Of a DNA stretch of 36,867 bases, positions 1-17,429 are shown in pieces. The DNA lies in the IMG/VR virus record IMGVR_UViG_3300032053_000231, positions 1-36,867 of that record. One strand, written 5' to 3'. The DNA is from a virus. The notes beneath the pieces are model-generated. The model saw nothing but the letters and a program-made list of their open reading frames with translations. It searched no databases and was not told where the DNA came from. The position numbers and the translations under genes were made by a program. Numbering within the stretch: the first letter of the stretch is position 1; each line of letters begins with the position of its first letter.

Positions 1-735
1 AGTGGTTTTAGTGGGTTTTCGGGCTATTCAGGAATCAGCGGATTCAGTGGTTTTAGCGGGTATTCGGGCTCAGGATTTTCGGGTTATAGCGGTGCGGGAA
101 CTTCAGGATTTTCGGGTTATTCAGGATATTCGGGAATAAGTGGTTTCAGCGGTTATTCGGGTTCAGGATTTTCGGGGTATAGCGGTGCTGGAATTTCAGG
201 GTTTTCAGGCTATTCAGGAACGTCAGGCTTCAGTGGCTATTCAGGTTACTCAGGGATTAGCGGATTTAGCGGTTATTCGGGTGCAGGAATAAGTGGATTT
301 AGTGGTTTTTCAGGGTACTCAGGAATAAGCGGTTTTAGCGGTTTTTCGGGCGCAGGAATTTCGGGTTTCAGTGGTTATTCGGGTTACTCAGGAATTTCGG
401 GATTTAGTGGATTTTCAGGCTATTCGGGAATTTCAGGATTCAGCGGTTTCAGCGGGTATTCAGGTTCGGGATTTTCGGGATATAGTGGGGCGGGAATTTC
501 AGGGTTTTCGGGTTATTCAGGGTACTCAGGAATTTCAGGATTCAGTGGGTTCAGTGGATATTCGGGCTCAGGATTTTCGGGTTATAGTGGTGCGGGAACT
601 TCAGGGTTTTCGGGCTATTCAGGAATAAGTGGTTTTAGCGGTTTCAGCGGTTATTCGGGAATTAGTGGTTTTTCAGGGTACAGTGGTTATAGTGGTTATA
701 GTGGCATCTCAGGTTTCAGTGGTTATTCGGGAAGT
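1..735 (+). repeat. Gly-X-Ser tandem repeat tract (collagen-like)
   Basis: About 80 tandem triplets of Gly-X-Ser, where X is mostly Phe, Tyr or Ile. The triplet phase is broken regularly by Gly-Ser or Gly-Ala dipeptides (as in YSGSGFSG and YSGAGISG). There is no Pro, Lys or Glu in the tract, so it is not a classical collagen helix. Serine is written with agt, agc, tca and tcg in mixed order, so neighbouring repeats differ at the DNA level while the protein repeat is preserved. The tract begins before base 1. Confidence 0.9.
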
Positions 736-1530
736 ACTCCAATAATTTCTTATTATGAAAACTTACCTTGGTATCAAGGTGGAGCATCTACATTAATGAA
801 TATGTCGGGAAGTAGTATTTGGGTTTGTCCATTTGTTCTTCCTGCAAAAATTTCAGCATCTTATATCAGGATGCCTGTTTCAATGTCAATGGTTAGTACA
901 ACATTTTCAGGCGCTACCTCAGCTGCAGCGGTTACTTTTTCAGCTCGATGGGCTTACACTATGGCTGCGGTTATTTATAGTAACGGAGCAGGAGCAAGTT
1001 CACTTAGTATACAATCATTAACTTCAAGTTCAGCGGGATGGACTGTTCAAACAAGTATAAGTGCAAGTAGTAACTCATACTCAGTTTCGTTTAACGTAAC
1101 GTATCCGTCTCTTGGGGCAAACACTCAAAACTACACAACGGGATACAGTGTTACAAGTTCAACATATAACATCAGCTCTAACAATATGACATTGTTAACA
1201 GGTGCAAGATGGTTAGATATTCCTTTTGCAGTATCGCTCGACGCAGATAACTATTGGATTGGTTTTGGAATGAGTGCTGCTTCTACATCAAACGGATTTA
1301 CAGCAATAACAGGCGCATCATTAGGGTTTACCACAATTGGAATTTCACAAGGCGCATCTTCTATTGGATTCCCTGCGCTTGCTACAAATACTTCAATACA
1401 AATGCAACCAGGGCTTGGAGCTTGGACAACCAACGCAAGTAATTTTTCAACAGGTTCTATGGGAATAAATAGTATCTCAGCGATTGCGAATAATCCGAAA
1501 CCTTACTTTCAAATGATTAGACAAGCATAA
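1..1530 (+). CDS. Phage fibre protein with Gly-X-Ser repeats, 5' end outside the window
   Basis: The reading frame is open from base 1 to the stop at 1528-1530, giving 509 visible residues; the start lies upstream. Residues 1 to about 245 are Gly-X-Ser repeats. Residues from about 246 on form a repeat-free C-terminal domain rich in Ser, Thr, Ala and aromatic residues, with no predicted membrane segment. Such repeat-plus-globular-tip proteins are usually tail fibres or virion surface appendages, with the C-terminal domain binding the receptor; that role is inferred. An ATG at 796 is in the same frame but is internal, because the repeat frame runs straight into it. The downstream glycosyltransferase block makes this Ser-rich shaft a possible glycan acceptor. 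Confidence 0.85.
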   Translation, partial: SGFSGFSGYSGISGFSGFSGYSGSGFSGYSGAGTSGFSGYSGYSGISGFSGYSGSGFSGYSGAGISGFSGYSGTSGFSGYSGYSGISGFSGYSGAGISGFSGFSGYSGISGFSGFSGAGISGFSGYSGYSGISGFSGFSGYSGISGFSGFSGYSGSGFSGYSGAGISGFSGYSGYSGISGFSGFSGYSGSGFSGYSGAGTSGFSGYSGISGFSGFSGYSGISGFSGYSGYSGYSGISGFSGYSGSTPIISYYENLPWYQGGASTLMNMSGSSIWVCPFVLPAKISASYIRMPVSMSMVSTTFSGATSAAAVTFSARWAYTMAAVIYSNGAGASSLSIQSLTSSSAGWTVQTSISASSNSYSVSFNVTYPSLGANTQNYTTGYSVTSSTYNISSNNMTLLTGARWLDIPFAVSLDADNYWIGFGMSAASTSNGFTAITGASLGFTTIGISQGASSIGFPALATNTSIQMQPGLGAWTTNASNFSTGSMGINSISAIANNPKPYFQMIRQA

Positions 1531-1961: not shown

Positions 1962-2117
1962 ATGGCAAAAATTAGCAAAAATAAACAATTTCGTATAACT
2001 AATCCCCCAAAGGACGTGCAGGAATATGTGTTTATAAGAATGAAAAATAGCCTTCGCTCCTTACCAAACGAGTTGATTGTAATTATCAGGGAGCATAAAG
2101 AAAATAATAAAAAATGA
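1962..2117 (+). CDS. Small basic 51-residue protein, ribbon-helix-helix-like layout
   Basis: ATG at 1962, stop TGA at 2115-2117, overlapping the ATG of the next gene (2114) by four bases; the overlap supports the frame. The product is basic, with a short possible strand (KQFRIT), then NPPKDVQEYVFIRMKNSL and SLPNELIVIIREHK as two possible helices. That order, strand then two helices, resembles ribbon-helix-helix DNA-binding proteins, but the match is only by eye. If it is one, it could regulate the glycan block it precedes. Otherwise it is an unknown small phage protein. Confidence 0.6.
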   Translation: MAKISKNKQFRITNPPKDVQEYVFIRMKNSLRSLPNELIVIIREHKENNKK

Positions 2118-2845
2118 ATAAGCCACAAATTATCATAGATAATTATGAGAACAGAGGATTTCATAATTCCGATTTAGAAAAAGCATCAGAAAGAATTTTA
2201 AAAGCGGGTGGCTATAAAGATTGCTCAACAATTTGCGTGATACCTACTCGTGGCACAATTCCTGCAAGAGCCGTACAATCATGGTTTAATTTAATACCAA
2301 TGATGAACCAACCTTTTTTAAGAATGTTCATTATCGGAATGGAAGTTGGCGAGGCGTATAATAACGCTATCGAAATAATTCTATCAAACCAACATCTAAA
2401 TAATTTCAAATACATGTTAACTTTAGAGGAAGATAATCTTCCGCCTCCTGACGGTTTAATAAAGCTTTATGAAAACATGGAAGATTACGATGTTGTTGGC
2501 GGTTTGTATTGGACAAAAGGAGAGGGGGGGCAACCAATGATTTACGGAAATCCATTGGAATTTCCAAAAAACTTTTCGCCACAAGTTCCAATTGCTGATT
2601 CAGTTCAACCGTGTAATGGACTTGGTATGGGTTTTACACTTTTTAAATTAGAAATGTTTCGTAGTGGAAAAATTCAACAACCATTTTTTAAAACATTTAA
2701 CGAACATAATCCACAAACGGGAACTAAAGTTTATACTCAGGATTTATATTTTTTTGAAAATGCAGGAAGAGCTGGGTATAGGTTTGCGAGCAACAATTCT
2801 GTTCGTGTAGGGCACTATGATATTAATTCTCAAATAATTTGGTAA
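2114..2845 (+). CDS. GT-A-type glycosyltransferase-like protein
   Basis: 243 residues. The N-terminal part holds a Rossmann-like strand and turn, CVIPTRGTIPARAV (residues 41-54). It is followed by the acidic motif LEEDNLPPPDG (104-114), which sits where GT-A enzymes keep their metal-binding DxD, and then by a conserved-looking GLGMGFTLFK segment. A late YTQDLYFFENAGRAGYRF stretch resembles the acceptor-side Asp/Glu region of these folds. I therefore read it as a GT2-related transferase. Donor and acceptor cannot be told. It overlaps the small upstream gene by four bases and leads a run of modification genes. Confidence 0.65.
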   Translation: MNKPQIIIDNYENRGFHNSDLEKASERILKAGGYKDCSTICVIPTRGTIPARAVQSWFNLIPMMNQPFLRMFIIGMEVGEAYNNAIEIILSNQHLNNFKYMLTLEEDNLPPPDGLIKLYENMEDYDVVGGLYWTKGEGGQPMIYGNPLEFPKNFSPQVPIADSVQPCNGLGMGFTLFKLEMFRSGKIQQPFFKTFNEHNPQTGTKVYTQDLYFFENAGRAGYRFASNNSVRVGHYDINSQIIW

Positions 2846-2853
2846 AAAAAAAT

Positions 2854-3483
2854 ATGGAAAAAAACTTTCAACTTTGCCCACATGGGTTTTTAAAAACACC
2901 TATTGACGGTTCAAAACCACAATGTAAATGTTGTGGGGCAGAAATAAAACTTGGCGAAACAAATTGCAAACATTGTGTTGTAAAATTAGATATTGCCTGT
3001 GGACAAAATAAAAGAGAAGGATTTATCGGAATAGATATTGTAAAATGTGAAGGTGTTGATATTGTTCACGACTTAAATGTTTATCCATATCCTTTTGAAG
3101 ATAATTCAGTGGATGAAATTTTCATGTCTCACTATATTGAACATGTTCCCGATTTAATGAAATTCATGAATGAGCTTTATAGAATTTTGAAAGTTGGAGG
3201 TACAATGAGTGTTATTGCCCCGTATTATAATTCAATAAGATGTTGGCAAGACCCGACCCATTTACAGCCGATAAGTGAAGCAACTTTTCTTTATTATAAT
3301 AAGGATTGGAGAAAAGCAAATAAATTAGACCATTATCCTATCACATGTGATTTCGACTTCTCACTTGGATACATGTTCGCTCCTGAATGGGCTTCAAGAA
3401 GCGAAGAGGCAAAACAATTCGCAATAAAACATTATACCAACGTAGTAACGGATTTACAAGTTAATTTAATTAAAAAAGCATGA
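2854..3483 (+). CDS. Zinc-ribbon plus class I SAM-dependent methyltransferase
   Basis: 209 residues from the ATG at 2854. A longer reading from TTG at 2839 is possible but would overlap the upstream gene, while ATG leaves an eight-base gap. The N-terminus carries six Cys (8, 24, 26, 27, 38, 41), arranged like a zinc ribbon. Motif I, LDIACG, is at 45-50, followed by GFIGIDI. The segment PYPFEDNSVDEIFMSHYIEHV then matches the post-motif region of Methyltransf_11 enzymes. It overlaps the next gene by four bases (ATGA). Its target is probably a sugar or glycan in this cassette; that is inference from neighbours only. Confidence 0.8.
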   Translation: MEKNFQLCPHGFLKTPIDGSKPQCKCCGAEIKLGETNCKHCVVKLDIACGQNKREGFIGIDIVKCEGVDIVHDLNVYPYPFEDNSVDEIFMSHYIEHVPDLMKFMNELYRILKVGGTMSVIAPYYNSIRCWQDPTHLQPISEATFLYYNKDWRKANKLDHYPITCDFDFSLGYMFAPEWASRSEEAKQFAIKHYTNVVTDLQVNLIKKA

Positions 3484-6400
3484 TGCCAATTTTCAGTATT
3501 GTAATTCCGACGCATAAACATTTAGACGTTCTAAAAAAATGTTGCGAATCCATAATTAAATTTACAAATTTATCTGACAAAGAAATTGTCGTGGTTGCAA
3601 ATGGCTGTGGCGATGACGGCACAAAAGAATACGTTGAAAGTTTAGGCTCACCATTTAAATTAATTGAGTTTGATAAAGCGTTAGGATATGCTAAAGCAAC
3701 CAACGAAGGAATAAAAATTGCAACAGGAGAATTTATTGTTCTTTTAAATAATGATTGCGAAATTTTATGGGGAAATAATGATTGGATAAATATATTATCG
3801 CAACCATTTGAAAATCCAAAAATAGGAATGACGGGTGTTCACGAAATTTACAGCGATGAAATCAAACATAATTTTTTAGTTTTTCATTGTGTAATGATTA
3901 GAAAAAAAGTTTTTGATGAAATAGGTTTACTTGATGAAATGTTCGGCTCGTTTGGTGAAGATATTGATTTCACCGCACGATTATTAAACAATGGATATAC
4001 TTATGTAAACGTTGAAAAAAACTCAGAACAAAAAGAGACGATGAAAGTGGGAACTTTTCCGTTATATCATCAAGGTTCAACAACAGTTCACGATGAAAAT
4101 CATTCAGTAGAATATGAAAAAATAGTTCAAAGAAATTTAGAAATTTTAAAAAGGCGTTACGATAAAACCATTAAGAGACCGAAGTACAGTATAGTGATTC
4201 CAAGTTTTAATCAGTGTGATAAATTACTGAAGCCTGCCTTAGAAAGTCTTATTGAAGCAACTGATTTATCGGATGTAGAGGTTATTGTTGTTGCCAACGG
4301 GTGTACCGATAACACAGAAGAATATGTAAACTCACTTGGAGAGCCATTCAGAGTTTTAGTTTACAAAGACCAACTTGGTTATCCAAAAGCAACCAACATT
4401 GGATTGAAAGATGCGCTCGGAGAATTTATAGTGTTTTTAAATAACGATGTTGTTCTTTACAAAAATCCGAAAGGTTGGTTAAATATTTTAAGAGAGCCTT
4501 TTGATAGCGGAAGAAAAATTGGAATGACGGGTGTTATGTTATTTATTGGAGATGCTAATTTTTCCAATGATTTCATAATGTTTTTCTGTGCAATGACAAC
4601 ACGAAAAGTAATTGATGAAGTGGGTTTATTGGATGAGAACTTTGGATTAGGTGGGGTTGAGGATGTCGACTACGGATTAAGATTAATATTAGCAGGATAT
4701 GAATTAGTAGAAGTTCCTAACGACGGGAAAACAAAGCGTAGTTCAGGAATGTCATCAGGAACGTTTCCTATTTTTCATGCGGGATGTTCTACTGTTTCAA
4801 AAGAAAAAGATTGGGACGAAAATTTAAAACGAAACAACGAATATTTAAAGAAAAAATTTCCTAATTATTTTAAAGGGATAGATTGGATTGAAGAAATGTC
4901 GGACAAGCCAAAAATTTATGACGCATTTTTATTTTTTAATGAGCTTGACCTTCTTGAATTACGCTTTAAAGAATTAAACGATACCGTTGATTTTTTCGTT
5001 ATCACTGAAGCAACAATTACACATCAAGGAAATCCTAAACCGTTATATTTTAAAGAAAACGAAAAAAGATTTGAAAAATACAAAGATAAAATAATTTATA
5101 TTTTAGTTGACCACTTCCCTGTATTTAATGAAGATGATTGGAAAAAGCCTTGGGATAGGGAGCAGTGGCAAAGACATTGTTTAATCAAAGGTCTTACTAA
5201 TTGCAAGGATAACGATGTGATTATTTTATCTGATGCAGATGAAATTCCAAATGTAGAAGCGATAAAAAATTACAAAGGCGGAGGAATAAAATCATTAGAA
5301 CAAAATCTTTATTACTATGACTTCCATCATTTAGCGGAAAAAAAATGGACTTGTGCTAAAATAATGCAGTTTAAAGATGTAAAAGAAGGTAAAACAAAAA
5401 TTCAGGATAATAATCCTTTCATTTTTTCAACCTATTTACGAAATGAAGAGCATGAAATAATTAAAAATGGTGGATGGCACTTTAGTTATTTAGCTGATAC
5501 AAAAGGAATAATAAATAAATTAAAATCTTTTTCGCATAGAGAGTTTAATACACATCCGTATACAGAAGAAGAATATATTAGACAGTGCATAGATAAGAAT
5601 AAAAATTTATTTTCAGATGATGTCCTGAGTTACGTGGAAATTGACAATTCGTATCCAAAAACTATATTAGACAACATTAATAAGTATAAATCAATGGGGT
5701 TTATAAAGTCCGACGGAATTAATTATAGTGAGCTCCATAAAATAATGCAACAAACAGATGTCGGTCTATATCATGAGCTATTTCAATTGAATGTTAACCA
5801 ACTCGAAAGAAAAGACATTGAAGGAAAAACAATAATTGATATTGGAGGAAACAAGGGATATTTTTCGATACAGTGTATGGAAATGGGGGCAAAGGAAACG
5901 TATTGTTTTGAGCCTGTAAAAAGTATTTACGGTCAATTACTTGAAATTACAAAAAATATAAAAGAAATTAATCCATATAATTTAGCGGTGTTAGATGGAA
6001 GCATAAGTGAGGTACACATGCACGAAGACGGAATGGCATCAAATATTTGGGGACAAAAAAGTTCTGAGCCAATTAAGTGTATATCATTTGTCGAAGCCAT
6101 GTCGCACGTCATAGATACAAGCAATATGATTCTTAAATTAGATTGTGAAGGCTCTGAATTTGAAATCGTACTTAATTCTCCAAAAGAACTTATTCGTAAG
6201 TTTTCCACCATATACATTGAGATTCATGACGAGATGAATCCTAATTATGTTCATAAAACAAAAGAGTTATTGGATTACATTGAAAATTTAGGGTTTAATT
6301 TAAAAAAAGGATTGCAGGCTGGGGTGTATGCGCCAGATGGTAGTTTTACTCCATCACCAATATGTATATATAAATGCGAGAGAATAGAACATAAAAGTAT

Positions 6401-8402
6401 ATGGGATAATGAAAATATATCAATAGATAGGTTTGGGGCATGGAACACTTCGCATAATGATATGCACCATATAGACGAAAGTTTATGTAACTCTTTAATA
6501 TCTTTTTTAAGTAAAAATAATTATTCTGTTTATGATTTTGGATGTGGATATGGGGAATATATAAAAAAATTCAAAGATAATTCTATTATATGTAAAGGAT
6601 ATGATGGGAACAAGGAAATAAAAACAAAATCAAATGGTTTGTGTGAACAGTTAAATTTAGCTGAGAAATTTAAAATGGACAAACTTGATGTAGTTATGTC
6701 ATTAGAAGTTGGCGAACATATTCCTAAAGAATACGAAGATGTTTTCATAGAAAACTTACATAATCATAATAGTAAATATATAATTTTGAGTTGGGCTATT
6801 GAAGGACAATTCGGATTAGGTCATGTTAATGAAAAGTCTAACAATTACATTAAGGATAAAATAATTAAATTAGGCTATGAGAATGATATTGTTTTAGAAA
6901 ATGAATTAAGAAAAAGTTCAACCTTTGCTTGGTTTAAAAATACTATAATGGTTTTTAGAAAATCGAATAAATTTACAATTGGTTATATAAATCATAGTAG
7001 TGATGATTATGAAAAATATTTAGAGCCAAGTTTACGTGAGTTAAATGAAAATGAATACGAAATAATATCATTTACAAATAAAAATAATCCTGCAAGAACT
7101 TACAATCAAATAATCGAACACTCTAAAAATAAATATATAATTCTATTACATCAGGACGTTATTTTTCCGCCAACATTTTTAGATTCTATAAAAAAAACGA
7201 TAGAGGCGCATCCTGATTTTGGAGTGTTAGGATTAGTAGGGTTTGACGAGTTCGCTAACTTAAATAGATTCACGCTTCATTCAACACCAAACCAAACACA
7301 TAAAGTAGATTTTTTTGATTCTTGTTGCATTGTAATAAATAAAGAAAATAACATAAAATTTGATGATGTTATTTTTGACGATTTTCATTTATATGTTGAA
7401 GATTATTGTATGCAAGCTAAGGAAAAAGGATTGAGCAACTATACTATTTTAGCGGATTATAACAAAAACGATGATTGCAAAATAAAACATTTCGGTACTA
7501 CTTATTTTAAAAATGGCGGTAAAATGTGGGGACGATACGATGAATATTATAGCGTATTTTTAAAAAAATGGATAAAGAAATTACACGCCACCCTTAGAAC
7601 AGATACATTAAACGGTACGATACATCATGATACGGACGAGGTAATAAAACCAAGAGTATGCATTGTAATTTTAGCAACAGGTAACTACGGTGATTTTGCA
7701 AAAAATCTTGTAGAAAGTATTAATTGGTATTTTATGACCGATTGTTATAAAGACATTCTTTTGCTTTCAGATACATTAGCGCCAATGACGCAACGGCTCG
7801 GAGAAAATTGCGTGGTGCATACCCGAAGATGTAAAAGCGTTAGAAAGGCATCGTATTTTTTTGAATTGATGTTAGAAAATTTAGATATTATTTCAAAAGC
7901 AGATTATTGTTACAAGATGGATGCTGACATGATTATTTATAAAAACATATTAGGAAACGAAATTTTACCAAGTTCTGAACAAAATTATTCAATAGTAAAA
8001 CATTTTGCATTCGACCAAAAAAGAATGTGTAGTATTATGCCTGATGATTTTTCAGCAAAAATCCCAATTGAATATCAGGATTGTGATGGTTGGCAATCAT
8101 GTTTATTTGGCGGTAGAACTACTCAAATGATTGAGTTGGCAAAAGAACTTAATCAGAAAATAGTAACGGATAGAGAAAATAATAAAATGTGGGGAGCGTG
8201 GGAAGAGCCTTACGTTAATTGGTATTTAGCGTTAAGAAAAAAAGAAGTTAGAACACTATCACCTACTTATGCAACTCCTTTGTATTGGCACAGATTTCAT
8301 CCTGATTATAAAGAAAAATATTTAAACTCGGTTAACGGAGATTCAGAAAAAATATTTCATTTTAATCATACTGTTCAATTTGGTGGACACGAAGTTGGAT
8401 GA
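3480..8402 (+). CDS. 1640-residue multidomain glycosyltransferase/methyltransferase
   Basis: One uninterrupted frame with seven modules in order. GT2 (1-230, FSIVIPTHKH, LLNNDCEIL). A second GT2 (from 235, YSIVIPSFNQ, FLNNDVVLY). GT17, the MGAT3-like family (from 476, FNELDLLELR, then SDADEIP with DAD at 585-587). FkbM-type methyltransferase (IDIGGNKGYF at 786-795, LDCEGSE at 887-893). A second SAM methyltransferase (YDFGCGYG at 1018-1025). A GT-A module (from 1165, LLHQDVIFPP near 1226). A GT6-like module (from 1391, DADM at 1481-1484, LFGGRTT, then WGAWEEPYVNWYL at 1571-1583). Start is 3480 or 3483; 3480 gives an ATGA overlap with the previous gene. Fusing so many steps suggests ordered building of one glycan. 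Donors, acceptor and linkage are unknown. Confidence 0.85.
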   Translation: MMPIFSIVIPTHKHLDVLKKCCESIIKFTNLSDKEIVVVANGCGDDGTKEYVESLGSPFKLIEFDKALGYAKATNEGIKIATGEFIVLLNNDCEILWGNNDWINILSQPFENPKIGMTGVHEIYSDEIKHNFLVFHCVMIRKKVFDEIGLLDEMFGSFGEDIDFTARLLNNGYTYVNVEKNSEQKETMKVGTFPLYHQGSTTVHDENHSVEYEKIVQRNLEILKRRYDKTIKRPKYSIVIPSFNQCDKLLKPALESLIEATDLSDVEVIVVANGCTDNTEEYVNSLGEPFRVLVYKDQLGYPKATNIGLKDALGEFIVFLNNDVVLYKNPKGWLNILREPFDSGRKIGMTGVMLFIGDANFSNDFIMFFCAMTTRKVIDEVGLLDENFGLGGVEDVDYGLRLILAGYELVEVPNDGKTKRSSGMSSGTFPIFHAGCSTVSKEKDWDENLKRNNEYLKKKFPNYFKGIDWIEEMSDKPKIYDAFLFFNELDLLELRFKELNDTVDFFVITEATITHQGNPKPLYFKENEKRFEKYKDKIIYILVDHFPVFNEDDWKKPWDREQWQRHCLIKGLTNCKDNDVIILSDADEIPNVEAIKNYKGGGIKSLEQNLYYYDFHHLAEKKWTCAKIMQFKDVKEGKTKIQDNNPFIFSTYLRNEEHEIIKNGGWHFSYLADTKGIINKLKSFSHREFNTHPYTEEEYIRQCIDKNKNLFSDDVLSYVEIDNSYPKTILDNINKYKSMGFIKSDGINYSELHKIMQQTDVGLYHELFQLNVNQLERKDIEGKTIIDIGGNKGYFSIQCMEMGAKETYCFEPVKSIYGQLLEITKNIKEINPYNLAVLDGSISEVHMHEDGMASNIWGQKSSEPIKCISFVEAMSHVIDTSNMILKLDCEGSEFEIVLNSPKELIRKFSTIYIEIHDEMNPNYVHKTKELLDYIENLGFNLKKGLQAGVYAPDGSFTPSPICIYKCERIEHKSIWDNENISIDRFGAWNTSHNDMHHIDESLCNSLISFLSKNNYSVYDFGCGYGEYIKKFKDNSIICKGYDGNKEIKTKSNGLCEQLNLAEKFKMDKLDVVMSLEVGEHIPKEYEDVFIENLHNHNSKYIILSWAIEGQFGLGHVNEKSNNYIKDKIIKLGYENDIVLENELRKSSTFAWFKNTIMVFRKSNKFTIGYINHSSDDYEKYLEPSLRELNENEYEIISFTNKNNPARTYNQIIEHSKNKYIILLHQDVIFPPTFLDSIKKTIEAHPDFGVLGLVGFDEFANLNRFTLHSTPNQTHKVDFFDSCCIVINKENNIKFDDVIFDDFHLYVEDYCMQAKEKGLSNYTILADYNKNDDCKIKHFGTTYFKNGGKMWGRYDEYYSVFLKKWIKKLHATLRTDTLNGTIHHDTDEVIKPRVCIVILATGNYGDFAKNLVESINWYFMTDCYKDILLLSDTLAPMTQRLGENCVVHTRRCKSVRKASYFFELMLENLDIISKADYCYKMDADMIIYKNILGNEILPSSEQNYSIVKHFAFDQKRMCSIMPDDFSAKIPIEYQDCDGWQSCLFGGRTTQMIELAKELNQKIVTDRENNKMWGAWEEPYVNWYLALRKKEVRTLSPTYATPLYWHRFHPDYKEKYLNSVNGDSEKIFHFNHTVQFGGHEVG

Positions 8403-8426
8403 AATATTACTTTAAAAACAAAAACT

Positions 8427-8630
8427 ATGGGATATAAAGGAATGTTAGGATGTATGGGATGGGCAAGTGATGATTTGCCAATCACGATAGAATTAACTAA
8501 ACTATGGAATAAACTTGGTACTGAAAATGGATTTATTTATAGTTTGGATGATAATGTAATGCCTGAACATCTTTCAAAGTTACTGGATGCTATAAACTCG
8601 GTGAGAAAATATTTAAAACAAAAAATATGA
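8427..8630 (+). CDS. Hypothetical 67-residue protein
   Basis: A short soluble protein between the multidomain transferase and the radical SAM gene, overlapping the latter by four bases (ATGA). It begins MGYKGMLGCMGWASDDLP and ends in an amphipathic helix (EHLSKLLDAINSVRKYLKQK). One Cys, no membrane segment. I do not recognise a family. Tight coupling suggests it is co-translated with the radical SAM protein and may assist it. Confidence 0.55.
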   Translation: MGYKGMLGCMGWASDDLPITIELTKLWNKLGTENGFIYSLDDNVMPEHLSKLLDAINSVRKYLKQKI

Positions 8631-9490
8631 TTTTATATATAGACGTTGCACATTGTAATATTCGTTGTAAAATGTGCCCTGTTGGGGACGTTAGAGGGTT
8701 AAGAGAATCAACATCGGGTTTAATGAGTATTGATATGTTCAAGAAAATAGCTGATAAATTAGTTGACGAAAATATTACCATTGATAATTTTTATATTGGT
8801 AATTGGGGAGAGGCAATGCTTAATCCTGATTTGTGGAAAATAATCAGATATGCTAAACAAACATTAAATCCAAAACAAATTTTAGTTAATTCAAATTTTT
8901 CACTAACAATTAAGAATCCTGAATTATTATTAATGTCAGGAGTTACGGACATCAGAGCGTCGGTATCAGGTATGACACAAGATGTTTATGAAAAAAATCA
9001 CGCAGGAGGAAATATTGAGCGTATTTTAGAAAACTTAAAAATATTAAGTTCTATTAAACGAGATTTAAAACTATTATTGCCGAACATCGCAATGGTTTAT
9101 CATGAATATTTATATAACCAACACGAAAACGAACCTGCAATAAAATTTTGTCAGGAACACGGAATAGATTTCATGCCTATCAGATGTTATCCATGTACTT
9201 TAGAAGAAGGAATAAAATTTCACCAAGACCCACAAGCAAGAGAGTCATACAAAGACTTTATAAACATTGACGAAGAAATTTCAAGAATGAGAACAATTCC
9301 TGACGAAGTGCCTTGCGGATTGGTTGACCAAATAGTGATTAACCATAACGGAACTGTTTTTAAATGCTGTGGAACTTATACTAATAAAAATTCTTTAGGT
9401 AATATATTTGATTGGAAAATAGCAGATTTATTAGCGCATTATCCGAAGTTATGTACACTTTGTAAAAGCATTCCGTTAAGTTGGAGATAA
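8627..9490 (+). CDS. Radical SAM protein with SPASM-like C-terminus
   Basis: 287 residues. The iron-sulfur motif CxxxCxxC is at Cys10, Cys14 and Cys17 (CNIRCKMCP). It is followed by NWGEAMLNPD, the usual GE motif that binds SAM methionine. The C-terminus has further Cys (VPCGL, FKCCGTY, CTLCKS), arranged like a SPASM or twitch auxiliary cluster. Such enzymes perform radical chemistry on sugars, peptides or small molecules. Lying between two glycosyltransferase polyproteins it may modify a sugar or a virion protein; the substrate cannot be read from sequence. Translationally coupled to the small gene before it. Confidence 0.85.
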   Translation: MILYIDVAHCNIRCKMCPVGDVRGLRESTSGLMSIDMFKKIADKLVDENITIDNFYIGNWGEAMLNPDLWKIIRYAKQTLNPKQILVNSNFSLTIKNPELLLMSGVTDIRASVSGMTQDVYEKNHAGGNIERILENLKILSSIKRDLKLLLPNIAMVYHEYLYNQHENEPAIKFCQEHGIDFMPIRCYPCTLEEGIKFHQDPQARESYKDFINIDEEISRMRTIPDEVPCGLVDQIVINHNGTVFKCCGTYTNKNSLGNIFDWKIADLLAHYPKLCTLCKSIPLSWR

Positions 9491-9503
9491 TTTAAAAATA
9501 AAA

Positions 9504-12287
9504 ATGAACTACGATATATTAAAAAAACAAATGGAAGCCGAGTACGAATTTTTGTACAAGGAAATTTTCATATTCAATTCATATAATTGTGAGGAAGGCG
9601 AACTGAAAAATAGAATTGTTATTGACATCGGAGCTAACACAGGATATTTTGCCATTTACGCAATAGAAAACGGTGCTAAAAAAGTATATGCCTTTGAGCC
9701 AAATAAAGAAAACTTTAAAAAACTAATTGAAAGAACAAAAGATTTCGATAATATTATTTGCATTAATAAAGCGGTTTATAAAGACGGTGTAAAAAAATGC
9801 TACACTGTAAACGACAGCAATCCAAATTTAACTGATTACGAAAATGGAGTTAGATGTGAGGTCAGAGAAGCTGAAACGGAAGAGCAAGGAACGATAGACG
9901 TTATTTCTTTAAAAGAAATTTTAGACGGAATAAATGAACAGGTTATTTTAAAAACGGACTGCGAAGGTTCTGAGTATGATTTTTTTCTAAGCTCATCGAA
10001 AGAAACGTTACAAAAAATAGATTTAATTTATTCTGAACTTCACGATAAACTACATCCGAATACAGATTATAATGTGGAGATGCTTACTGATTTTATTGTA
10101 AGTAATGGTTTTGAATACATAAAATGTCAAATAAGATGGTCAACAGGAGTTTGGATTGGCGGACATTATATTCCTGAACGAAGCGATAAGAACGGAGATA
10201 ATAATTATTATAGGAAGTTTAAAAGACTACAAAATGTTATTTCCGAATATAAACCAAAAGTATACGACTGTTTCCCTATATTTAATGAATTAGACCTATT
10301 AGAAATAAGACTTGAAGAATTAAATTCAGTGGTTGATAAATTTATCATCACTGAGGCTAATGCTACTCATCAGGGAAATCCGAAACCGCTCTATTTAACC
10401 GAAAATATTGGGAGGTTTGAAAAATATAAAGATAAAATTGAAATTATCATTGTTGACTTATTAAATAATATTCCTGACCCTACATCAAAGCAAGATTGGA
10501 CAAGGGAGCGATTTCAAAGAAATAAAGCGTATGATTATTTAAAAAGTGTTTGCTTACCTAATGATATTGTTATTGTGTCAGACGCAGATGAGATACCAAG
10601 AGTAGAAGCTATTCAGAAATACATATCAGATAAAAAAGACGCTGTTGGAGTTTTATTACAAGATAGATTCATGTATTATTTAAATTATAAAAATATAACT
10701 ACCGATGAGCCACAGTTAAACTCAAAAATTTTAAGATTTGAGATGTTTAATAAATATAATTATCAAGAATTAACCGCTATGCGATACGCAGACACGGAAA
10801 AATTAATGCCTACGTATACAATAAATAAAGGCGGTTGGCACTTTACTTTTCAAGGCGGAATTAAAAAAGTTATCGAAAAAGTTAAGTCATTTGCACATAG
10901 GGAATATAATGTAAATGAAAAAATAAATTATGACAGGATGTTGAAAAATTTCGAGGAAGGAATTGACGTGTATGATGCAAAAACTACTTGGGAAACAGTT
11001 GAGGTTGATGAAACTTTTCCTAAAAAAATTCAAAGTGATAAACAAAAATATATTGATGACGGATGGATTAAGGAAAACAAAAAGATTGTTGGATTTAGAG
11101 GATATATAGATGCTCACTTATTGATATGTAAGTGTGGCTTTAATGGAGAAGTAATGTTTCCTGAATGTCCGTCATGTGGCAACAAAGATGTTAACCCTAC
11201 TTATATAGATAAGTATAAACAAGCAATAAAAATAGAAAAAGATAGTAAAGAAGCAATCATGAATAAAAAAAACATTCTTTGTTCAATATCTACACGGGGG
11301 AGATATGATACTACATTAGCTATGTCAATACAATCCGTATTATCACAAACGCTATTACCTGATGCGCTTTACATTTACGATGATAACGATGAGCCAAAAG
11401 ATTTACGGGAAATTCAGCATTATCATTATTTATTTAGAATGTTGGATGAGAAAAATATTTCTTGGAAAATTATATTCGGTCAAAAAAAAGGGCAACACTA
11501 CAATCATCAATTAGCAAATAAAGAAGGATATAACTGGGTATGGAGACTTGATGACGACACCATTGCCGAACCAAACGTACTCCAAACACTTTACGAAGCT
11601 ACGGATAGTACGGTAGGGGCAGTGGGTGGAAGTATACTCACGCCTCCCTTTGAAAAAGGAGTCAGAGCAACAGGTAAAATTGAAAATATAAAAGTTGAGC
11701 CTAATTTACAATGGGACTACATAAAAGAAACTAAGGAAGTTGACCATCTTCATTGTTCTTTCCTTTATAGAGCAGGTATTGTGGATTATGATTTAAGTTT
11801 GAGTCGGGTAGCTCATCGTGAAGAGACTCTGCTAACATTCGGTTTAAAAAATAAAGGATATAAAATATTAATAGTCCCTACAATCACTTGGCATCTTAAA
11901 AACAAAGATGGCGGAATTAGAGATGAAAAAAATACCATTTCTATGTACGAACACGATGAAAAAATATTTGACTCTTATTTAAATATTTGGGATGTAAATA
12001 AAACACAAAACAAATTATGTGTTATTGATGCGGGAATCGGAGACCATTATGCATTCAAAAACATTATACCATTGCTATTGAAAAAATATAAAAAATTAAC
12101 TGTTGCGGTATGTTATCCTGATGTTTTCTTTGATGAAGATAAAGAAAATATAAATTTTATTTCATTGGAGCAATCAAAACAAATATTTTCAGGCGATATT
12201 GGAATGTTTAATATTTATGTTTGGATGGATAAGAATAAATGGACAGGAAGTTTAACGGACGCATTTAAAGAATTTTATAACGTATGA
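9504..12287 (+). CDS. 927-residue FkbM / GT17 / GT2 / partial GT9 protein
   Basis: Modules in order. FkbM-type methyltransferase (IVIDIGANTGYF from 38, TDCEGSE at 151-157). GT17 (from about 250, FNELDLLEIR, SDADEIP with DAD at 360-362). A zinc-ribbon segment with Cys542, 544, 555 and 558. GT2 (from 590, ISTRGRYDTT, LDDDT at 682-686). A final 90 residues from about 837 (CVIDAGIGDHYAFKNIIP), which resemble the N-terminal half of GT9 heptosyltransferases. The GT9-like C-terminal half is the next gene, which overlaps by four bases. The FkbM and GT17 modules are paralogous to those in the 1640-residue protein but in opposite order. Confidence 0.8.
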   Translation: MNYDILKKQMEAEYEFLYKEIFIFNSYNCEEGELKNRIVIDIGANTGYFAIYAIENGAKKVYAFEPNKENFKKLIERTKDFDNIICINKAVYKDGVKKCYTVNDSNPNLTDYENGVRCEVREAETEEQGTIDVISLKEILDGINEQVILKTDCEGSEYDFFLSSSKETLQKIDLIYSELHDKLHPNTDYNVEMLTDFIVSNGFEYIKCQIRWSTGVWIGGHYIPERSDKNGDNNYYRKFKRLQNVISEYKPKVYDCFPIFNELDLLEIRLEELNSVVDKFIITEANATHQGNPKPLYLTENIGRFEKYKDKIEIIIVDLLNNIPDPTSKQDWTRERFQRNKAYDYLKSVCLPNDIVIVSDADEIPRVEAIQKYISDKKDAVGVLLQDRFMYYLNYKNITTDEPQLNSKILRFEMFNKYNYQELTAMRYADTEKLMPTYTINKGGWHFTFQGGIKKVIEKVKSFAHREYNVNEKINYDRMLKNFEEGIDVYDAKTTWETVEVDETFPKKIQSDKQKYIDDGWIKENKKIVGFRGYIDAHLLICKCGFNGEVMFPECPSCGNKDVNPTYIDKYKQAIKIEKDSKEAIMNKKNILCSISTRGRYDTTLAMSIQSVLSQTLLPDALYIYDDNDEPKDLREIQHYHYLFRMLDEKNISWKIIFGQKKGQHYNHQLANKEGYNWVWRLDDDTIAEPNVLQTLYEATDSTVGAVGGSILTPPFEKGVRATGKIENIKVEPNLQWDYIKETKEVDHLHCSFLYRAGIVDYDLSLSRVAHREETLLTFGLKNKGYKILIVPTITWHLKNKDGGIRDEKNTISMYEHDEKIFDSYLNIWDVNKTQNKLCVIDAGIGDHYAFKNIIPLLLKKYKKLTVAVCYPDVFFDEDKENINFISLEQSKQIFSGDIGMFNIYVWMDKNKWTGSLTDAFKEFYNV

Positions 12288-12730
12288 AAAAAATAATCAT
12301 AAGCCCGTTTTCAAAACCAATGCGAAATAATTCAGCGCACCCTAAAAATTATCCGTATTGGAAAGAGTTAATTTCAATTTTAAAAGAAAAAGGACATTAC
12401 ATAATACAGATAGGAACAGGTAATGAAGAAGTTTTAACTGAAGACTTTAGATTTAATTTAAGCTTTAAAGAGCTACGTGATTTGTCTCGCAGTGTAGATT
12501 TATTTATATCTGTGGATAATTTTTTCCCACACCTTGTTAATCATTATAGCGGTTGTAAGGGTATAGTGATATTTTCTCAGTCAGACCCCAACATATTTGG
12601 TTATAAACAAAACATCAACATATTAAAAGATAAGAAATATCTGAGAGAAAAGCAATTTTGGATGTGGGAGCAGTGCAATTTTGTTAAAGATTCATTTGTT
12701 TTTCCTGAAATCATAGCCAATCAAGTTTAA
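12284..12730 (+). CDS. C-terminal half of a GT9-like (heptosyltransferase-type) transferase
   Basis: 148 residues. It starts with a strand-turn, KKIIISPFSKP, as at the start of the GT-B donor domain. It continues PKNYPYWKELISILKEKGHYIIQIGTG and LSFKELRDLSRSVDLFISVDNFFPHL, matching the pattern of GT9 (ADP-heptose-type) enzymes, where the SVDNF/SxDSG segment lies near the donor site. It lacks the N-terminal Rossmann domain, and such a half is found at the end of the preceding protein. The ATGA overlap makes equimolar synthesis of the two halves likely. I infer a split GT-B enzyme; the true sugar donor is unknown. Confidence 0.65.
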   Translation: MKKIIISPFSKPMRNNSAHPKNYPYWKELISILKEKGHYIIQIGTGNEEVLTEDFRFNLSFKELRDLSRSVDLFISVDNFFPHLVNHYSGCKGIVIFSQSDPNIFGYKQNINILKDKKYLREKQFWMWEQCNFVKDSFVFPEIIANQV

Positions 12731-12748
12731 ATTTAAATAATTATTTTA

Positions 12749-12784
12749 AAAAACTAATTAACAATTTATTGTTAATTAGTTTTT
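12749..12784 (+). terminator. Hairpin terminator at the end of the glycan block
   Basis: Seventeen bases (12749-12765) pair perfectly with 12768-12784 around a two-base loop. The right arm ends in five T. It lies 19 bases after the stop of the last glycan gene, and a separate gene follows. The stem is AT-rich, so a bidirectional or protein-binding role is also possible. Confidence 0.65.
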
Positions 12785-12806
12785 AAAATTAACAATTAAT
12801 AAAAAC

Positions 12807-12814
12807 TATTTTTG
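12807..12814 (+). promoter_or_regulatory. Possible Bacteroidota -7 element
   Basis: TATTTTTG fits TAnnTTTG, the -7 element of Bacteroidota promoters, 46 bases before the ATG at 12860 and just after the upstream hairpin. No TTTG is found at the expected -33 spacing, so the call rests on one element and on the layout. Confidence 0.35.
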
Positions 12815-12859
12815 TAAAATTCAATAATAAATCAAACCAAAAATCAAAAAATAATAATC

Positions 12860-13291
12860 ATGGAAGTGCAAAACGAACCAAAAAATGAGCCTAAAATTAC
12901 AAATAATGCTATAAGCAGAACGATAATTGGCTTAGGAGAAATTGGCAACCTCGACATTGAAGATTTTAAGTTAAATTATGGAATTACAAGGAGTATCGCT
13001 AATTTAAGTCAAGTTGAAAAAGCATATATAAAATCCTTGAACGCTATACAAAAAAAGTATATTAGTAAGGATGAAAAAGGAAATTTTGTAATAGAGGGTA
13101 ATAATTATGTTTTTAATAGTGAAAAAGAAAAAAGCAGTTATTTAGACGAACTCGATAAATTAAACGAAACGGTTGTCGATGTAGAAGTTTGGAAAATGAA
13201 AACATCTGATTTACAAAAACTGAAAGGGATTAAAGGCACTACAATGTCTAAGTGTCACGAAATTATTATTGACGACTTGAACTTAAAATAA
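12860..13291 (+). CDS. Hypothetical 143-residue protein, own transcription unit
   Basis: A soluble, helix-rich, charged protein between a hairpin and possible promoter on the left and a strong intrinsic terminator on the right, so probably transcribed alone. Central text NLSQVEKAYIKSLNAIQKKY, then a DEKGNF turn, and a C-terminal LQKLKGIKGTTMSKCHEII. This layout recalls DUF1617-like phage proteins (a helix, a DE-G-N-containing linker, a closing helix), but I hold that link loosely. A separate promoter and terminator suggest it is needed at a different level or time from its neighbours. Confidence 0.65.
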   Translation: MEVQNEPKNEPKITNNAISRTIIGLGEIGNLDIEDFKLNYGITRSIANLSQVEKAYIKSLNAIQKKYISKDEKGNFVIEGNNYVFNSEKEKSSYLDELDKLNETVVDVEVWKMKTSDLQKLKGIKGTTMSKCHEIIIDDLNLK

Positions 13292-13313
13292 TACAAATTT
13301 AAACTGAAAACAG

Positions 13314-13349
13314 TAGCCTCTACCATCAAGTAGGGGCTATTTTTTTTTT
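13314..13349 (+). terminator. Intrinsic terminator
   Basis: Ten-base stem TAGCCTCTAC (13314-13323) and GTAGGGGCTA (13330-13339) with one G-U pair, a six-base loop, and ten T at 13340-13349. This is a textbook Rho-independent terminator, 22 bases after the stop of the 143-residue protein gene. Confidence 0.9.
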
Positions 13350-13396
13350 AAAATCATATAACTAAATCAAATTAACCTGAAAAAAAGGCATAAAAT

Positions 13397-13417
13397 CTTG
13401 ATTATTTTGTTTGATTA
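13397..13417 (+). promoter_or_regulatory. Copy 1 of a 21-base paired TTGATTA element (possible operator)
   Basis: CTTGATTA, four A/T bases, then GTTTGATTA: two TTGATTA boxes 13 bases apart. The second box overlaps the -33 TTTG of the promoter beside it. The same 21-base arrangement occurs twice more, at 31921-31941 and 31952-31972. A protein bound here would cover the -33 element, so repression is the simplest idea; this is inference. Confidence 0.5.
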
Positions 13418-13440
13418 TGTGGTTTAAATAATTATATTTG
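13410..13440 (+). promoter_or_regulatory. Bacteroidota-type promoter for the lysis and membrane gene unit
   Basis: TTTG at 13410-13413, 19 bases, then TATATTTG at 13433-13440. This is an exact match to the Bacteroidota primary sigma consensus TTTG-N19-21-TAnnTTTG. It lies 27 bases before the ATG at 13468 and just after an intrinsic terminator. It probably drives the small membrane protein and lysis genes that follow, and it is good evidence for the host group. Confidence 0.75.
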
Positions 13441-13467
13441 AAAAAATTAAATTATTTAATTTGTTTT

Positions 13468-13683
13468 ATGAGTATTGATAGTACGCCAATTTCAGTTTTG
13501 GAAAAAGAAATTAAACATTTTGAAGCGTTTATAAGGAGACTTCAAACAAGGGAAGGTATAACCAAACACGAAAACGAAAATGAGGAAGAACATAAAAAAA
13601 AATTCGATAAATTAATTAGTGATTATAGATTAAAAATTAATGAATTTCAAACCGCAATAAATATTTTAAATAAAAATAAATAA
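13468..13683 (+). CDS. Hypothetical 71-residue coiled-coil protein
   Basis: ATG at 13468 was chosen; a TTG 30 bases earlier is in frame but lies inside the -7 promoter element, so it cannot be the start of a transcript from that promoter. The product is almost entirely charged helix: residues 9-30 and 40-70 have heptad-like spacing (ISVLEKEIKHFEAFIRRLQ). No membrane segment. It is the first gene of the unit that leads into the endolysin region. No family recognised. Confidence 0.65.
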   Translation: MSIDSTPISVLEKEIKHFEAFIRRLQTREGITKHENENEEEHKKKFDKLISDYRLKINEFQTAINILNKNK

Positions 13684-13710
13684 AATTTTTTGAACTAAAA
13701 CGAACCGAAC

Positions 13711-14088
13711 ATGGAAGCAACATTACCTAACAATAACTCTGAAGAAAAACCTTTATCAACAAGGTCACTTCAAAACCATCTCATTAAAACAGCAATAGGA
13801 GCTTTGGTCATTGCGTTGCTTGGAGGATTTCTTACATCTTACGCATCTTATTACCGAACGAATGATGCTATTAGTGAGTTAAATAAAAGTAAGGACGAAA
13901 GTAAGCAGGACATTAAAGATTTAAAAAAGGATGTTGCCGACATAAAACTTACGCTCTCAAGTACGGGAATATACACAAACAATAATAAAGAGGAAATCAC
14001 TCAGTTAAAAAATGACGTTTCTGAAATTAAAAAATCTCAGGGAGAAATGATGAAACTTCTTTACGATATAAAGTCAAAACAAAAGTAA
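13711..14088 (+). CDS. Membrane-anchored coiled-coil protein
   Basis: 125 residues: a polar N-terminus, one membrane helix (about 26-46, IKTAIGALVIALLGGFLTSYA), then a long coiled coil to the end (DESKQDIKDLKKDVADIKL, EEITQLKNDVSEIKKSQGE). It shares with XhlA-type lysis accessory proteins the pairing of one membrane helix and one coiled coil, but the order is reversed. Placed two genes upstream of the cold-shock and endolysin genes, it may help holin function or anchor a complex at the inner membrane. Function not proven. Confidence 0.65.
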   Translation: MEATLPNNNSEEKPLSTRSLQNHLIKTAIGALVIALLGGFLTSYASYYRTNDAISELNKSKDESKQDIKDLKKDVADIKLTLSSTGIYTNNNKEEITQLKNDVSEIKKSQGEMMKLLYDIKSKQK

Positions 14089-14090
14089 AA

Positions 14091-14531
14091 ATGTCAAAGA
14101 ACGATTGGAACATAAAAATATCTGAATCAGATAAACCTAACATGAGGGGGTTTTATGTTACTGTGGAAAGAAACGGAGAGTATGTTGGCGGAATAAAAGG
14201 AATCATACCTGACTTTAACCGTGCAGTTGAGGAAGGAAAAGGAATGATAATTTCTAATATTAAAAGGTTACATGAAAAAATAAAATATGCAAATCACGCA
14301 TCTGATATTTTCGTTCGGAAATTTTTAATGAATAAAATGATAGATGGTATTTATGGAATTGGCGTTTTTAATGATGAAAATGGAGACCCTTATTTAGAAG
14401 TAAGTATGAACACAAAAAACGAGTATTTAATGAAGTTAGTACCTGACGAAATAGAAGTTCCGCACACAATTTTTAAATATAAAATTAAAAAAGTTTACGG
14501 AGAGAAAAGTGTAGCGCAAAATAAAAAATAA
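14091..14531 (+). CDS. Hypothetical 146-residue protein
   Basis: Starts two bases after the upstream stop and overlaps the next gene by one base (TAATG). N-terminal part is mixed strand and helix (RGFYVTVERNGEYVGG). The C-terminal part, GIYGIGVFNDENGDPYLEVSM through VPDEIEVPHTIFKYKIKKVYG, resembles the short beta domain found at the front of some trypsin-like phage and bacterial proteins. No protease catalytic triad is present. I do not assign a function. Confidence 0.6.
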   Translation: MSKNDWNIKISESDKPNMRGFYVTVERNGEYVGGIKGIIPDFNRAVEEGKGMIISNIKRLHEKIKYANHASDIFVRKFLMNKMIDGIYGIGVFNDENGDPYLEVSMNTKNEYLMKLVPDEIEVPHTIFKYKIKKVYGEKSVAQNKK

Positions 14532-14704
14532 TGGAAAATAGTTTAAGTGGTATAAAGCAAGTTAGGAAAGGCGCTCATACGGGAGAGATAATCGGATTTA
14601 CTTTAGGTATTATTCTTTTTTCAACAACAATTTACGCAATGAGTTTGGCAATAAAGGCACATAGGCTTACAATAAAAAAATTAAATAACGAAGGTTATAA
14701 ATAG
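14531..14704 (+). CDS. 57-residue single-span membrane protein
   Basis: ATG at 14531 overlaps the upstream TAA by one base, and the stop TAG is at 14702-14704. The product has a basic N-terminus (GIKQVRKGAHTG), a membrane helix at about 19-40 (EIIGFTLGIILFSTTIYAMSLA) and a basic tail (HRLTIKKLNNEGYK). Size and layout fit a small holin, antiholin or other inner-membrane phage protein. No recognised family. Confidence 0.6.
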   Translation: MENSLSGIKQVRKGAHTGEIIGFTLGIILFSTTIYAMSLAIKAHRLTIKKLNNEGYK

Positions 14705-14749
14705 AAATTAATTCAATAAATAAAAACAACAAAACAACAACAAAAAGTT

Positions 14750-14956
14750 ATGAAAACAGGAGTACAACAAACAGGAAGTGTAAAATTTTTTAATCAGGAA
14801 AAAGGTTTTGGATTTATTAAACAAGATAATGGAGAAGAAATTTTCGTTCATACTTCAGGTTTAAAAGATGACATTAAACAGAACGACAGAGTAACTTTTG
14901 AAGTTACGCAGGGAAAAAAGGGACTAAACGCAGTAAACATTTTATTGGAAGAGTAA
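14750..14956 (+). CDS. CspA-type cold-shock protein
   Basis: 68 residues, full length for the family. It has the single-strand nucleic-acid-binding motifs RNP1 (KGFGFI, residues 18-23) and RNP2 (IFVH, 31-34), with GSVKFFN before them. Cold-shock domains bind single-stranded RNA or DNA and melt RNA structure. In a phage such a protein may act as an RNA chaperone or antiterminator in late transcription; which is not shown here. The A-rich leader of about 45 bases has no Shine-Dalgarno sequence. Confidence 0.92.
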   Translation: MKTGVQQTGSVKFFNQEKGFGFIKQDNGEEIFVHTSGLKDDIKQNDRVTFEVTQGKKGLNAVNILLEE

Positions 14957-15014
14957 TCCAATTTGCATTTAGTCCGTTATTATTTTAGTATTTAAAAATT
15001 AAATAAAAATAATT

Positions 15015-15698: not shown

Positions 15699-15702
15699 AA
15701 AA

Positions 15703-16149
15703 ATGACTACTATAACTATTTTACAAAATATTCAGCCATATACCAAATATATAATATTATTCGGATTTATTATTTATGTAATTACAAGTATGTGGTTCTG
15801 TGTTAGATTTTTCAAAGACGAAAAATTACGCAGATGGATGCTTTCATCATTATCTAATGATAACATATTTGAAAAAGGCGGTTCGGGAAAAGCTTTTACC
15901 GCATTTTTATTATCACACGTCGTTGCATTTTCTTCAGTTATAGCAGTTGTACACTCGAAAGACCACGAGTTGCCTGATTATATGTTCATAGGACTCATTT
16001 CTTTTATAGCAGCGTTATATGGAATTAAGATGGCAGGAAAATTTGGAAATAGTGGAAGTATTAGTTCAACAACCACATCCACGCAAAGCACAACAATAGA
16101 AGAAATAAAGGAAAAAAAAGATGAAGATGTAATACCTCAAGCAGGATAA
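15703..16149 (+). CDS. Putative holin, three membrane spans
   Basis: 148 residues, four bases after the endolysin. Hydrophobic segments are at about 15-36, 64-83 and 91-110, followed by a Ser/Thr-rich stretch and an acidic/basic C-terminal tail (IEEIKEKKDED). The position beside the endolysin, the number of spans and the charged tail fit a class I-like holin, though holin families are too diverse for sequence proof. It could instead be an antiholin or membrane scaffold. Confidence 0.6.
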   Translation: MTTITILQNIQPYTKYIILFGFIIYVITSMWFCVRFFKDEKLRRWMLSSLSNDNIFEKGGSGKAFTAFLLSHVVAFSSVIAVVHSKDHELPDYMFIGLISFIAALYGIKMAGKFGNSGSISSTTTSTQSTTIEEIKEKKDEDVIPQAG

Positions 16150-16161
16150 GCAGAATAAAAA

Positions 16162-17417: not shown

Positions 17418-17429
17418 TAAAATTAAAAA

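Follow-up and report, generated by a model that had tools for sequence, protein, structure and literature searches.

What could a phage make with a single 1640-residue protein that carries five glycosyltransferase and two methyltransferase modules, and on what acceptor would such a protein act? The question is raised by the gene at positions 3480–8402 (plus strand) of the IMG/VR virus record IMGVR_UViG_3300032053_000231, the whole of which (36,867 bases, hereafter the window; the record may be incomplete) was analysed. Our reading, to which we assign a probability of about two in three from sequence comparisons, is that this protein is the principal enzyme of a phage locus for O-glycosylation in the cytoplasm, and that its acceptor is the (Gly-X-Ser)n tail-fibre protein encoded upstream. 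The gene of this collagen-like protein, which was absent from a preliminary description of the window, occupies the left end of the record; the glycosyltransferase and methyltransferase cluster (2114–12730) follows 0.6 kb downstream on the same plus strand.

The frame at 3480–8402 opens with ATG and runs for 1640 codons with no internal stop. The seven modules named in the preliminary description, in the order GT2-GT2-GT17-FkbM-methyltransferase-GT-A-GT6, all passed their curated Pfam cut-offs, and their borders were set by self-comparison. Modules 1 and 2 (residues 1–232 and 233–462; positions 3480–4175 and 4176–4865) are GT2 enzymes with 47% identity to each other; Glycos_transf_2 matched the protein over three stretches (score 155.8, cut-off 23.3), with the motifs NND at residues 90 and 99 and GEDID at 159 in module 1, and NND at 321 and GGVEDVD at 391 in module 2. 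Module 3 is a GT17 enzyme (residues 467–748, 4878–5723; 112.5 versus 26; SDADE at 584); a profile search found no solved relative of the GT17 modules. Module 4 is an FkbM methyltransferase (Methyltransf_21; residues 753–985, 5736–6434; 29.0 versus 22.7) with DIGGNKG at 787 and LKLDCEGSE at 885, and module 5 is a class I methyltransferase (Methyltransf_23, PF13489; residues 986–1165, 6435–6974; 38.1 versus 27) with VYDFGCGYG at 1017. The chain ends with a GT-A fold transferase (Glyco_tranf_2_5, PF13712; residues 1167–1375, 6978–7604; 86.4 versus 27; HQDV at 1224 and YVEDY at 1305) and a GT6 module of the ABO/alpha-1,3-galactosyltransferase family (residues 1377–1640, 7608–8399; 39.7 versus 25), in which the DxD motif is kept as MDADM at 1480. 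In a check set beforehand, the DxD or S-adenosylmethionine (SAM) motifs were intact in all seven modules and none was degenerate. The guanine-plus-cytosine content by codon position was also alike across all seven. The protein thus combines at least two glycosyltransferase domains with a methyltransferase in one chain, as expected of a multi-domain viral enzyme of this kind.

The candidate acceptor is encoded at 1–1530 (plus strand) by an open frame that lacks a start and reaches the 5' end of the record, leaving 509 residues; open reading frame (ORF) tables that exclude open ends miss its repeats and list the C-terminal part alone. The repeats occupy residues 1–244 and are followed by a C-terminal domain of about 265 residues, for which there was no PHROG match. 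Pfam Collagen (PF01391) matched the protein at 81.8 bits (cut-off 27.2, E 2.9e-23). The repeat part contains 85 Gly, 79 Ser and 0 Pro; the X residue is mostly Phe, Tyr or Ile (30 GFS, 27 GYS and 14 GIS triplets), and the register is interrupted in places by short GA and GS units. With a serine in nearly every triplet, the protein would be a natural O-acceptor. Repeat ORFs of this kind match PHROG families annotated as tail fibre, although these matches may be compositional. The repeat strings GYSGYSG, SGYSGFSG, SGFSGYSG and SGYSGYSG were not found in the literature searched. Serine-rich collagen-like ORFs of 2800 and 2266 residues, of the GTS and GSS types, were also seen in two other viral contigs (L174, 3–8402, and L210, 3–6800); in L210, no GT9 half (described below) was found within the fetched stretch.

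The preliminary description had called the 1640-residue chain self-contained. This does not hold, because further glycosyltransferase and methyltransferase modules lie within 2114–12730, and the parts best conserved in such loci are a divergent GT2 and a GT9-like enzyme split in two. Both belong to the right end of the cluster, where a second multi-module protein of 927 residues (9504–12287, plus strand) was resolved by Pfam and by comparisons into FkbM, GT17 and divergent GT2 modules and a 92-residue tail. The tail (12009–12284) is proposed to be the N-terminal half of the GT9-like enzyme, and a 148-residue protein (12284–12730, plus strand), whose start lies four bases before the end of the 927-residue gene, would be its C-terminal half. 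The core recurring in these loci has two members: one is a divergent GT2 that ends in a tail of about 90 residues, and the other is a protein of about 150 residues that begins at or just before the stop of the GT2 gene. Among 90 clusters of contigs with the small protein, the GT2 family was found in 80; the same clustering recovered the small protein itself in 79, those missed being fused, partial or too divergent. In three loci the two are listed as one frame: L147, where Pfam supports GT9; L101, where the match is just below the cut-off; and L110, which has no GT9 match.

Judged from profile matches and predicted fold, the 148-residue protein is the C-terminal nucleotide-sugar domain half of a GT9 (GT-B) enzyme. 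Its fold was predicted with a mean pLDDT (predicted local distance difference test) of 96.8, and via fold comparison it matched WaaF (Z 15.3; root-mean-square deviation 2.2 over 129 aligned residues), TibC (14.9; 2.7 over 140), WaaC (14.5; 2.1 over 125) and 3tov (14.0; 3.0 over 139), always aligning to the C-terminal halves; the next matches had Z scores of 11.7 and 9.6. A profile search reached WaaC residues 180–295 (E 1.7e-5). The Pfam GT9 score of the window copy (14.4 bits) is below the cut-off of 22, and the copies in L103 and L117 are above it. In the fused protein of L147, the PF01075 match spans residues 84–228 only. An alignment that combined fused with half GT9 proteins, and in which the halves seemed misaligned, was not used. 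The divergent GT2 part has a GT-A fold; polypeptide N-acetylgalactosamine (GalNAc) transferases are among its matches, but not specifically. The tail, with its invariant GxGDH, would suit a GT9 N-terminal half. We propose a split GT-B enzyme whose two parts are the GT2-fused tail and the free C-terminal half with its overlapping start, an apparent division that has been kept in many phages.

The GT9 half and the Gly-X-Ser fibre genes were found to be associated in both directions, and this association is strong. Contigs sharing 60-mers were merged into clusters; the viral set came from GT17, GT2 and FkbM scans, and the bacterial and archaeal comparison set from one GT17 scan. Among the viral clusters, a Gly-X-Ser ORF was present in 40 of 68 with the GT9 half versus 4 of 77 without it, and it was present in none of the 76 bacterial or archaeal GT17 clusters. 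In the reverse direction, viral records were picked by the repeat DNA pattern alone, and the whole record was then searched for the GT9 half. At least 120 stretches matched the pattern; from the matches listed, 58 clusters having 16 or more SGxSG tetrads were retained, corresponding to 57 records (two clusters share one), stretches with 3 to 15 tetrads were left out, and 6 of the retained 58 coincide in part with loci from the glycosyltransferase scans. The GT9 half was present in 34 of the 57 Gly-X-Ser records (31/49 plus 3/8), compared with 0 of 50 Gly-Pro-X collagen records (from 50 of the 93 available clusters) and 2 of 32 chance-pattern records (all 32 clusters with fewer than three tetrads), both of the latter being weak matches (31 and 17 bits). 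Of the 62 clusters in which both genes were present, 61 had the nearest repeat ORF on the same strand; the median distance was 2.2 kb. Furthermore, in a set of 37 clusters with the GT9 half that came from the glycosyltransferase scans and was not selected on repeat sequence, the collagen-like ORFs had Ser or Thr at 60% or more of the Y positions in 37/37, with a mean Ser/Thr fraction of 0.91 and 0.3% Pro. The cultured Methylophilaceae phage P19250A (KX815270) has a methyltransferase, a GT2 with the GT9 tail and a GT9 half directly after a 1201-residue (GYSGFSG)n protein, P19250A_0023 (L318, 15750–19355), which lies downstream of host-specificity and tail-fibre genes. By its sequence, this protein is collagen-like, and its annotation as a tail length tape-measure protein looks wrong. 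No report linking such phage enzymes to a collagen-like fibre, and none on a multidomain phage glycosyltransferase/methyltransferase with FkbM, was found in the literature searched.

Several observations weigh against the fibre as acceptor. The Fisher values (4.5e-13 for the forward viral comparison; 6e-13 and 3e-7 for the reverse test against the Gly-Pro-X and chance-pattern controls) assume independent clusters, though phages are related, and shared descent may inflate them. The association is also incomplete: 23 of the 57 Gly-X-Ser records, some longer than 40 kb, lacked the GT9 half, and of these 8 had some PF00535 enzyme and 15 had neither (PF00535 was found in 11 of the 50 Gly-Pro-X records), so a given record can hold the fibre and none of these enzymes. 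Conversely, 28 of the 68 clusters with the GT9 half had no repeat ORF in the fetched stretch, many of these stretches being short. The proposed N-terminal half matched no GT9 profile in profile searches. The likeness of the C-terminal half to TibC is a hint only of a serine acceptor; WaaF and WaaC, which are lipopolysaccharide (LPS) enzymes, tie with TibC by fold, so a protein acceptor does not follow. Finally, Gly-X-Ser repeats may not form a collagen triple helix.

This incompleteness would also fit mere hitch-hiking of the enzymes and the fibre in the hypervariable host-recognition region of the same phage lineages, with the enzymes acting on something else, such as another virion protein or host glycans. 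In aquatic phages, regions that are variable or structural do harbour tail-fibre, collagen-like and glycosyltransferase genes (PMC10202952, PMC7029224). However, the Gly-Pro-X collagen records, which are also fibre-like, lacked the GT9 half altogether, and the two genes almost always share a strand. Across the 90 clusters with the GT9 half, moreover, only glycosyltransferase families were widely shared as neighbours, so unrelated neighbourhoods keep the pair; an antisense ORF family among the shared neighbours was regarded as artefactual, arising from the GT2 coding strand. Hitch-hiking is therefore a minor possibility, but one to be kept in mind.

A different target, the host surface, is the usual assumption for phage glycosyltransferases (PMC7029224): the enzymes would alter O-antigen or capsule against superinfection or re-adsorption. 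One GT2 module matches phrog_841, which is GtrB-like, and the GT9 relatives WaaC and WaaF act on LPS. Nevertheless, no GtrA flippase was found in the record by a search that was positive in 7 of 14 control genomes, and the cluster proteins contain no membrane-like stretch (highest 19-residue Kyte-Doolittle mean, 1.26). Nor would surface modification predict the association with Gly-X-Ser fibres, and we consider it improbable. Soluble glycosyltransferases, a record without GtrA, and fibre and lysis genes nearby instead fit direct cytoplasmic transfer from nucleotide sugars to a protein. The lysis genes lie to the right of the cluster and comprise a weakly matching Rz-like spanin (13711–14088) and an endolysin (15015–15698; phrog_181).

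Phage DNA glycosylation is established in general, and the bases of the phage DNA might also be the target. Such hypermodification has been proposed for aquatic phage glycosyltransferases (PMC10202952), the record encodes a DNA methyltransferase (24164–25327, minus strand), and the GT9 half also matches the fold of T4 alpha-glucosyltransferase, though more weakly. The cluster, however, adjoins fibre and lysis genes and lies on the strand opposite to the minus-strand genes that include the DNA methyltransferase, and the fibre association is again not predicted. A Tet_JBP match was not found in the record, but the control was likewise silent. Taken together, DNA hypermodification is hardly credible here. 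The minus strand to the right of the cluster also carries a tRNA-methyltransferase-like gene, and a phage-encoded protein of the NA37 nucleoid-associated type was observed at 33069–34115 (minus strand).

The first gene of the cluster (2114–2845, plus strand) encodes a possible GT-A-like protein of 243 residues, a weak assignment (phrog_1574, of unknown function, E 4e-6; PF00535, 12.9 bits versus a cut-off of 23.3). The next (2839–3483, plus strand) encodes a SAM-dependent methyltransferase of 214 residues (Methyltransf_11, 40.3 bits, cut-off 21.2), and the start of the 1640-residue gene overlaps its stop by four bases. A Radical SAM protein with a SPASM-like tail is encoded inside the cluster at 8627–9490 (plus strand; Radical_SAM 40.6, cut-off 29.5; SPASM 18.5, below its cut-off of 21.5), and its substrate could be a sugar or the peptide of the fibre.

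Long chains of this type were not confined to the window. The preliminary description regarded the architecture as extreme for a phage; yet scans with GT17, GT2 and FkbM alignments and with our own hidden Markov models found ORFs with at least three modules in 37 of 145 viral clusters, and relatives reach ten modules and about 2970 residues. Of the 43 non-redundant ORFs, 42 came from viral contigs and one from a bacterial contig, and 34 of the 37 viral clusters had the GT9 half and 21 a Gly-X-Ser ORF. Like for like, in the GT17 scan alone, such ORFs occurred in 8 of the 55 viral clusters versus 1 of the 76 from genomes. When the whole protein was used as query, viral contigs yielded two relatives (L003 and L004) and bacterial and archaeal genome contigs none. 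In annotated phages, 34 records matched, each with one or two modules at less than 32% identity, and none covered 80% of the protein. L003 encodes a 2969-residue chain with five GT2, three GT17 and three FkbM modules, a PF13712 module and another methyltransferase; it is preceded by a 1581-residue collagen-like frame, from which two ORFs separate it, and followed by a terminase gene. In L004, a 187-kb contig, the modules are spread over several successive frames (9902–17860); the breaks more likely reflect sequencing or assembly indels than biology, and readings with genetic codes 15 and 4 leave the frames unclosed. Two further ORFs were also noticed among these loci: a NUMOD3 (homing-endonuclease-type) ORF at 15731–16468 of L003, flanked by the 2969-residue chain and by the GT2 gene that bears the GT9 tail, and, judged by eye, a GIY-YIG-like ORF between the core genes of L142.

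The suggestion that module order might record the order of sugar addition found no support in these relatives. There were 21 different orders among 55 proteins, and of 112 GT2 modules, 58 found their best match at a different ordinal position of another protein and 49 at an equivalent one, whereas for 5 the best match lay within their own chain. Because GT2 modules best match other proteins rather than their chain neighbours, the modules appear to be old and reshuffled, and their order is a poor record of the chemistry. Such variability in order and content would also fit unselected gene accretion, in which the modules, some of them decayed, are carried along and share no common product; but 1640 codons in one open frame, intact motifs throughout and the recurrence of long multi-module frames make accretion very improbable.

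We infer the acceptor, the starting enzyme, the sugar identities, the chemistry and the order of addition, and consider the fibre the most likely acceptor. First, a protein-directed transferase would start on the Y-position serines of the triplets, for which the best candidates are the divergent GT2 of the conserved core and the GT9-like enzyme in two parts (11211–12730). The GT2, GT2, GT17, GT-A and GT6 modules, together with modules of the 927-residue protein, would then extend the chain from nucleotide sugars, and the FkbM and class I methyltransferase modules would O-methylate the sugars. Methyl capping is suggested by the two methyltransferases in the chain and the others beside it. The resulting glycans would shield the fibre, make it stiffer or adjust host binding. 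As first proposed, an assembly line that makes a methyl-capped glycan is the natural reading of five glycosyltransferase and two methyltransferase modules with intact motifs; it is plausible, but would be wider than one protein.

A more general scheme can be put forward only tentatively: many phages might carry proline-free collagen fibres with virus-made, O-methylated oligosaccharides on the Y serines, glycosyl-serine taking the place of the hydroxyproline of animal collagen, with the split GT9 starting the chain, giant shuffled chains finishing it in the manner of a synthase that adds sugars, and module swaps changing the coat of the fibre. If the fibre is indeed the acceptor, large-scale glycosylation of collagen-like fibres takes place in phages, and its machinery differs from those of animals, mimivirus and Bacillus spores; very long glycosyltransferase/methyltransferase proteins, known mostly from metagenomes, would acquire a function. 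Variable modules would let recombination change the sugars on the virion surface, and a collagen that lacks proline, is saturated with serine and carries sugar at Y would help to tell whether glycosylation alone stabilises a collagen helix. The cultured phage P19250A, with its minimal three-gene set and fibre, is a place to test this.

Sugars on collagen are known from other systems: vent-worm collagen is stabilised by galactosyl-threonine at the Y position, and the repeats of Bacillus anthracis BclA are GPT. The collagen-like region of BclA, an exosporium protein, is densely O-glycosylated with a GalNAc-rhamnose-rhamnose-rhamnose-anthrose chain (PMC10050317), of which the terminal sugar carries a 2-O-methyl group (PMC6222408), and according to a review its glycosylation is thought to aid a hydration network (PMC8968730). 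BclA, however, is a bacterial spore protein modified by separate enzymes; here, the substrate would be a phage fibre and the enzymes are fused. TibC modifies serine, not threonine, of an adhesin, and it is one chain with an iron-binding four-cysteine motif that forms an iron-containing dodecamer (PMC4358343). The phage enzyme resembles TibC and the AAH autotransporter heptosyltransferases in its GT9-like C-terminal domain, by fold similarity only, and differs in that its C-terminal half is a separate protein and its candidate N-terminal half is fused to a GT2. We know of no multi-module glycosyltransferase/methyltransferase chain in mycobacteriophages, whose glycans sit on capsid and tail-tube C-termini, whereas we propose glycans on a collagen-like fibre. 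Phage virion proteins are glycosylated with phage-encoded glycosyltransferases (PMC11256854), and virion glycosylation has been described in mycobacteriophages (Freeman et al. 2023, as cited in PMC12619734).

Two further parallels come from Mimivirus and the chlorovirus PBCV-1. In Mimivirus, the viral enzyme L230 glycosylates the collagen-like viral protein L71 (PMC9614988), a pairing of the kind proposed here. L230, however, is a collagen lysyl hydroxylase and glucosyltransferase that acts on hydroxylysine and has one glycosyltransferase domain, whereas the phage triplets are serine-rich and proline-free. The chlorovirus PBCV-1 encodes A064R, a 638-residue chain of two rhamnosyltransferases and a methyltransferase, and A111/114R, an 860-residue chain of three glycosyltransferases, and it builds a methylated glycan for its own virion protein (PMC9614988, PMC7826918). 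Virus-encoded chains of glycosyltransferase and methyltransferase domains are thus common to both, A064R being likened to the phage protein by description, not by sequence. The PBCV-1 chain has three domains and serves an algal virus, in which the N-glycan sits on the capsid protein; the phage chain, in contrast, has seven modules, GT17 and GT6 among them, and its likely acceptor is collagen-like.

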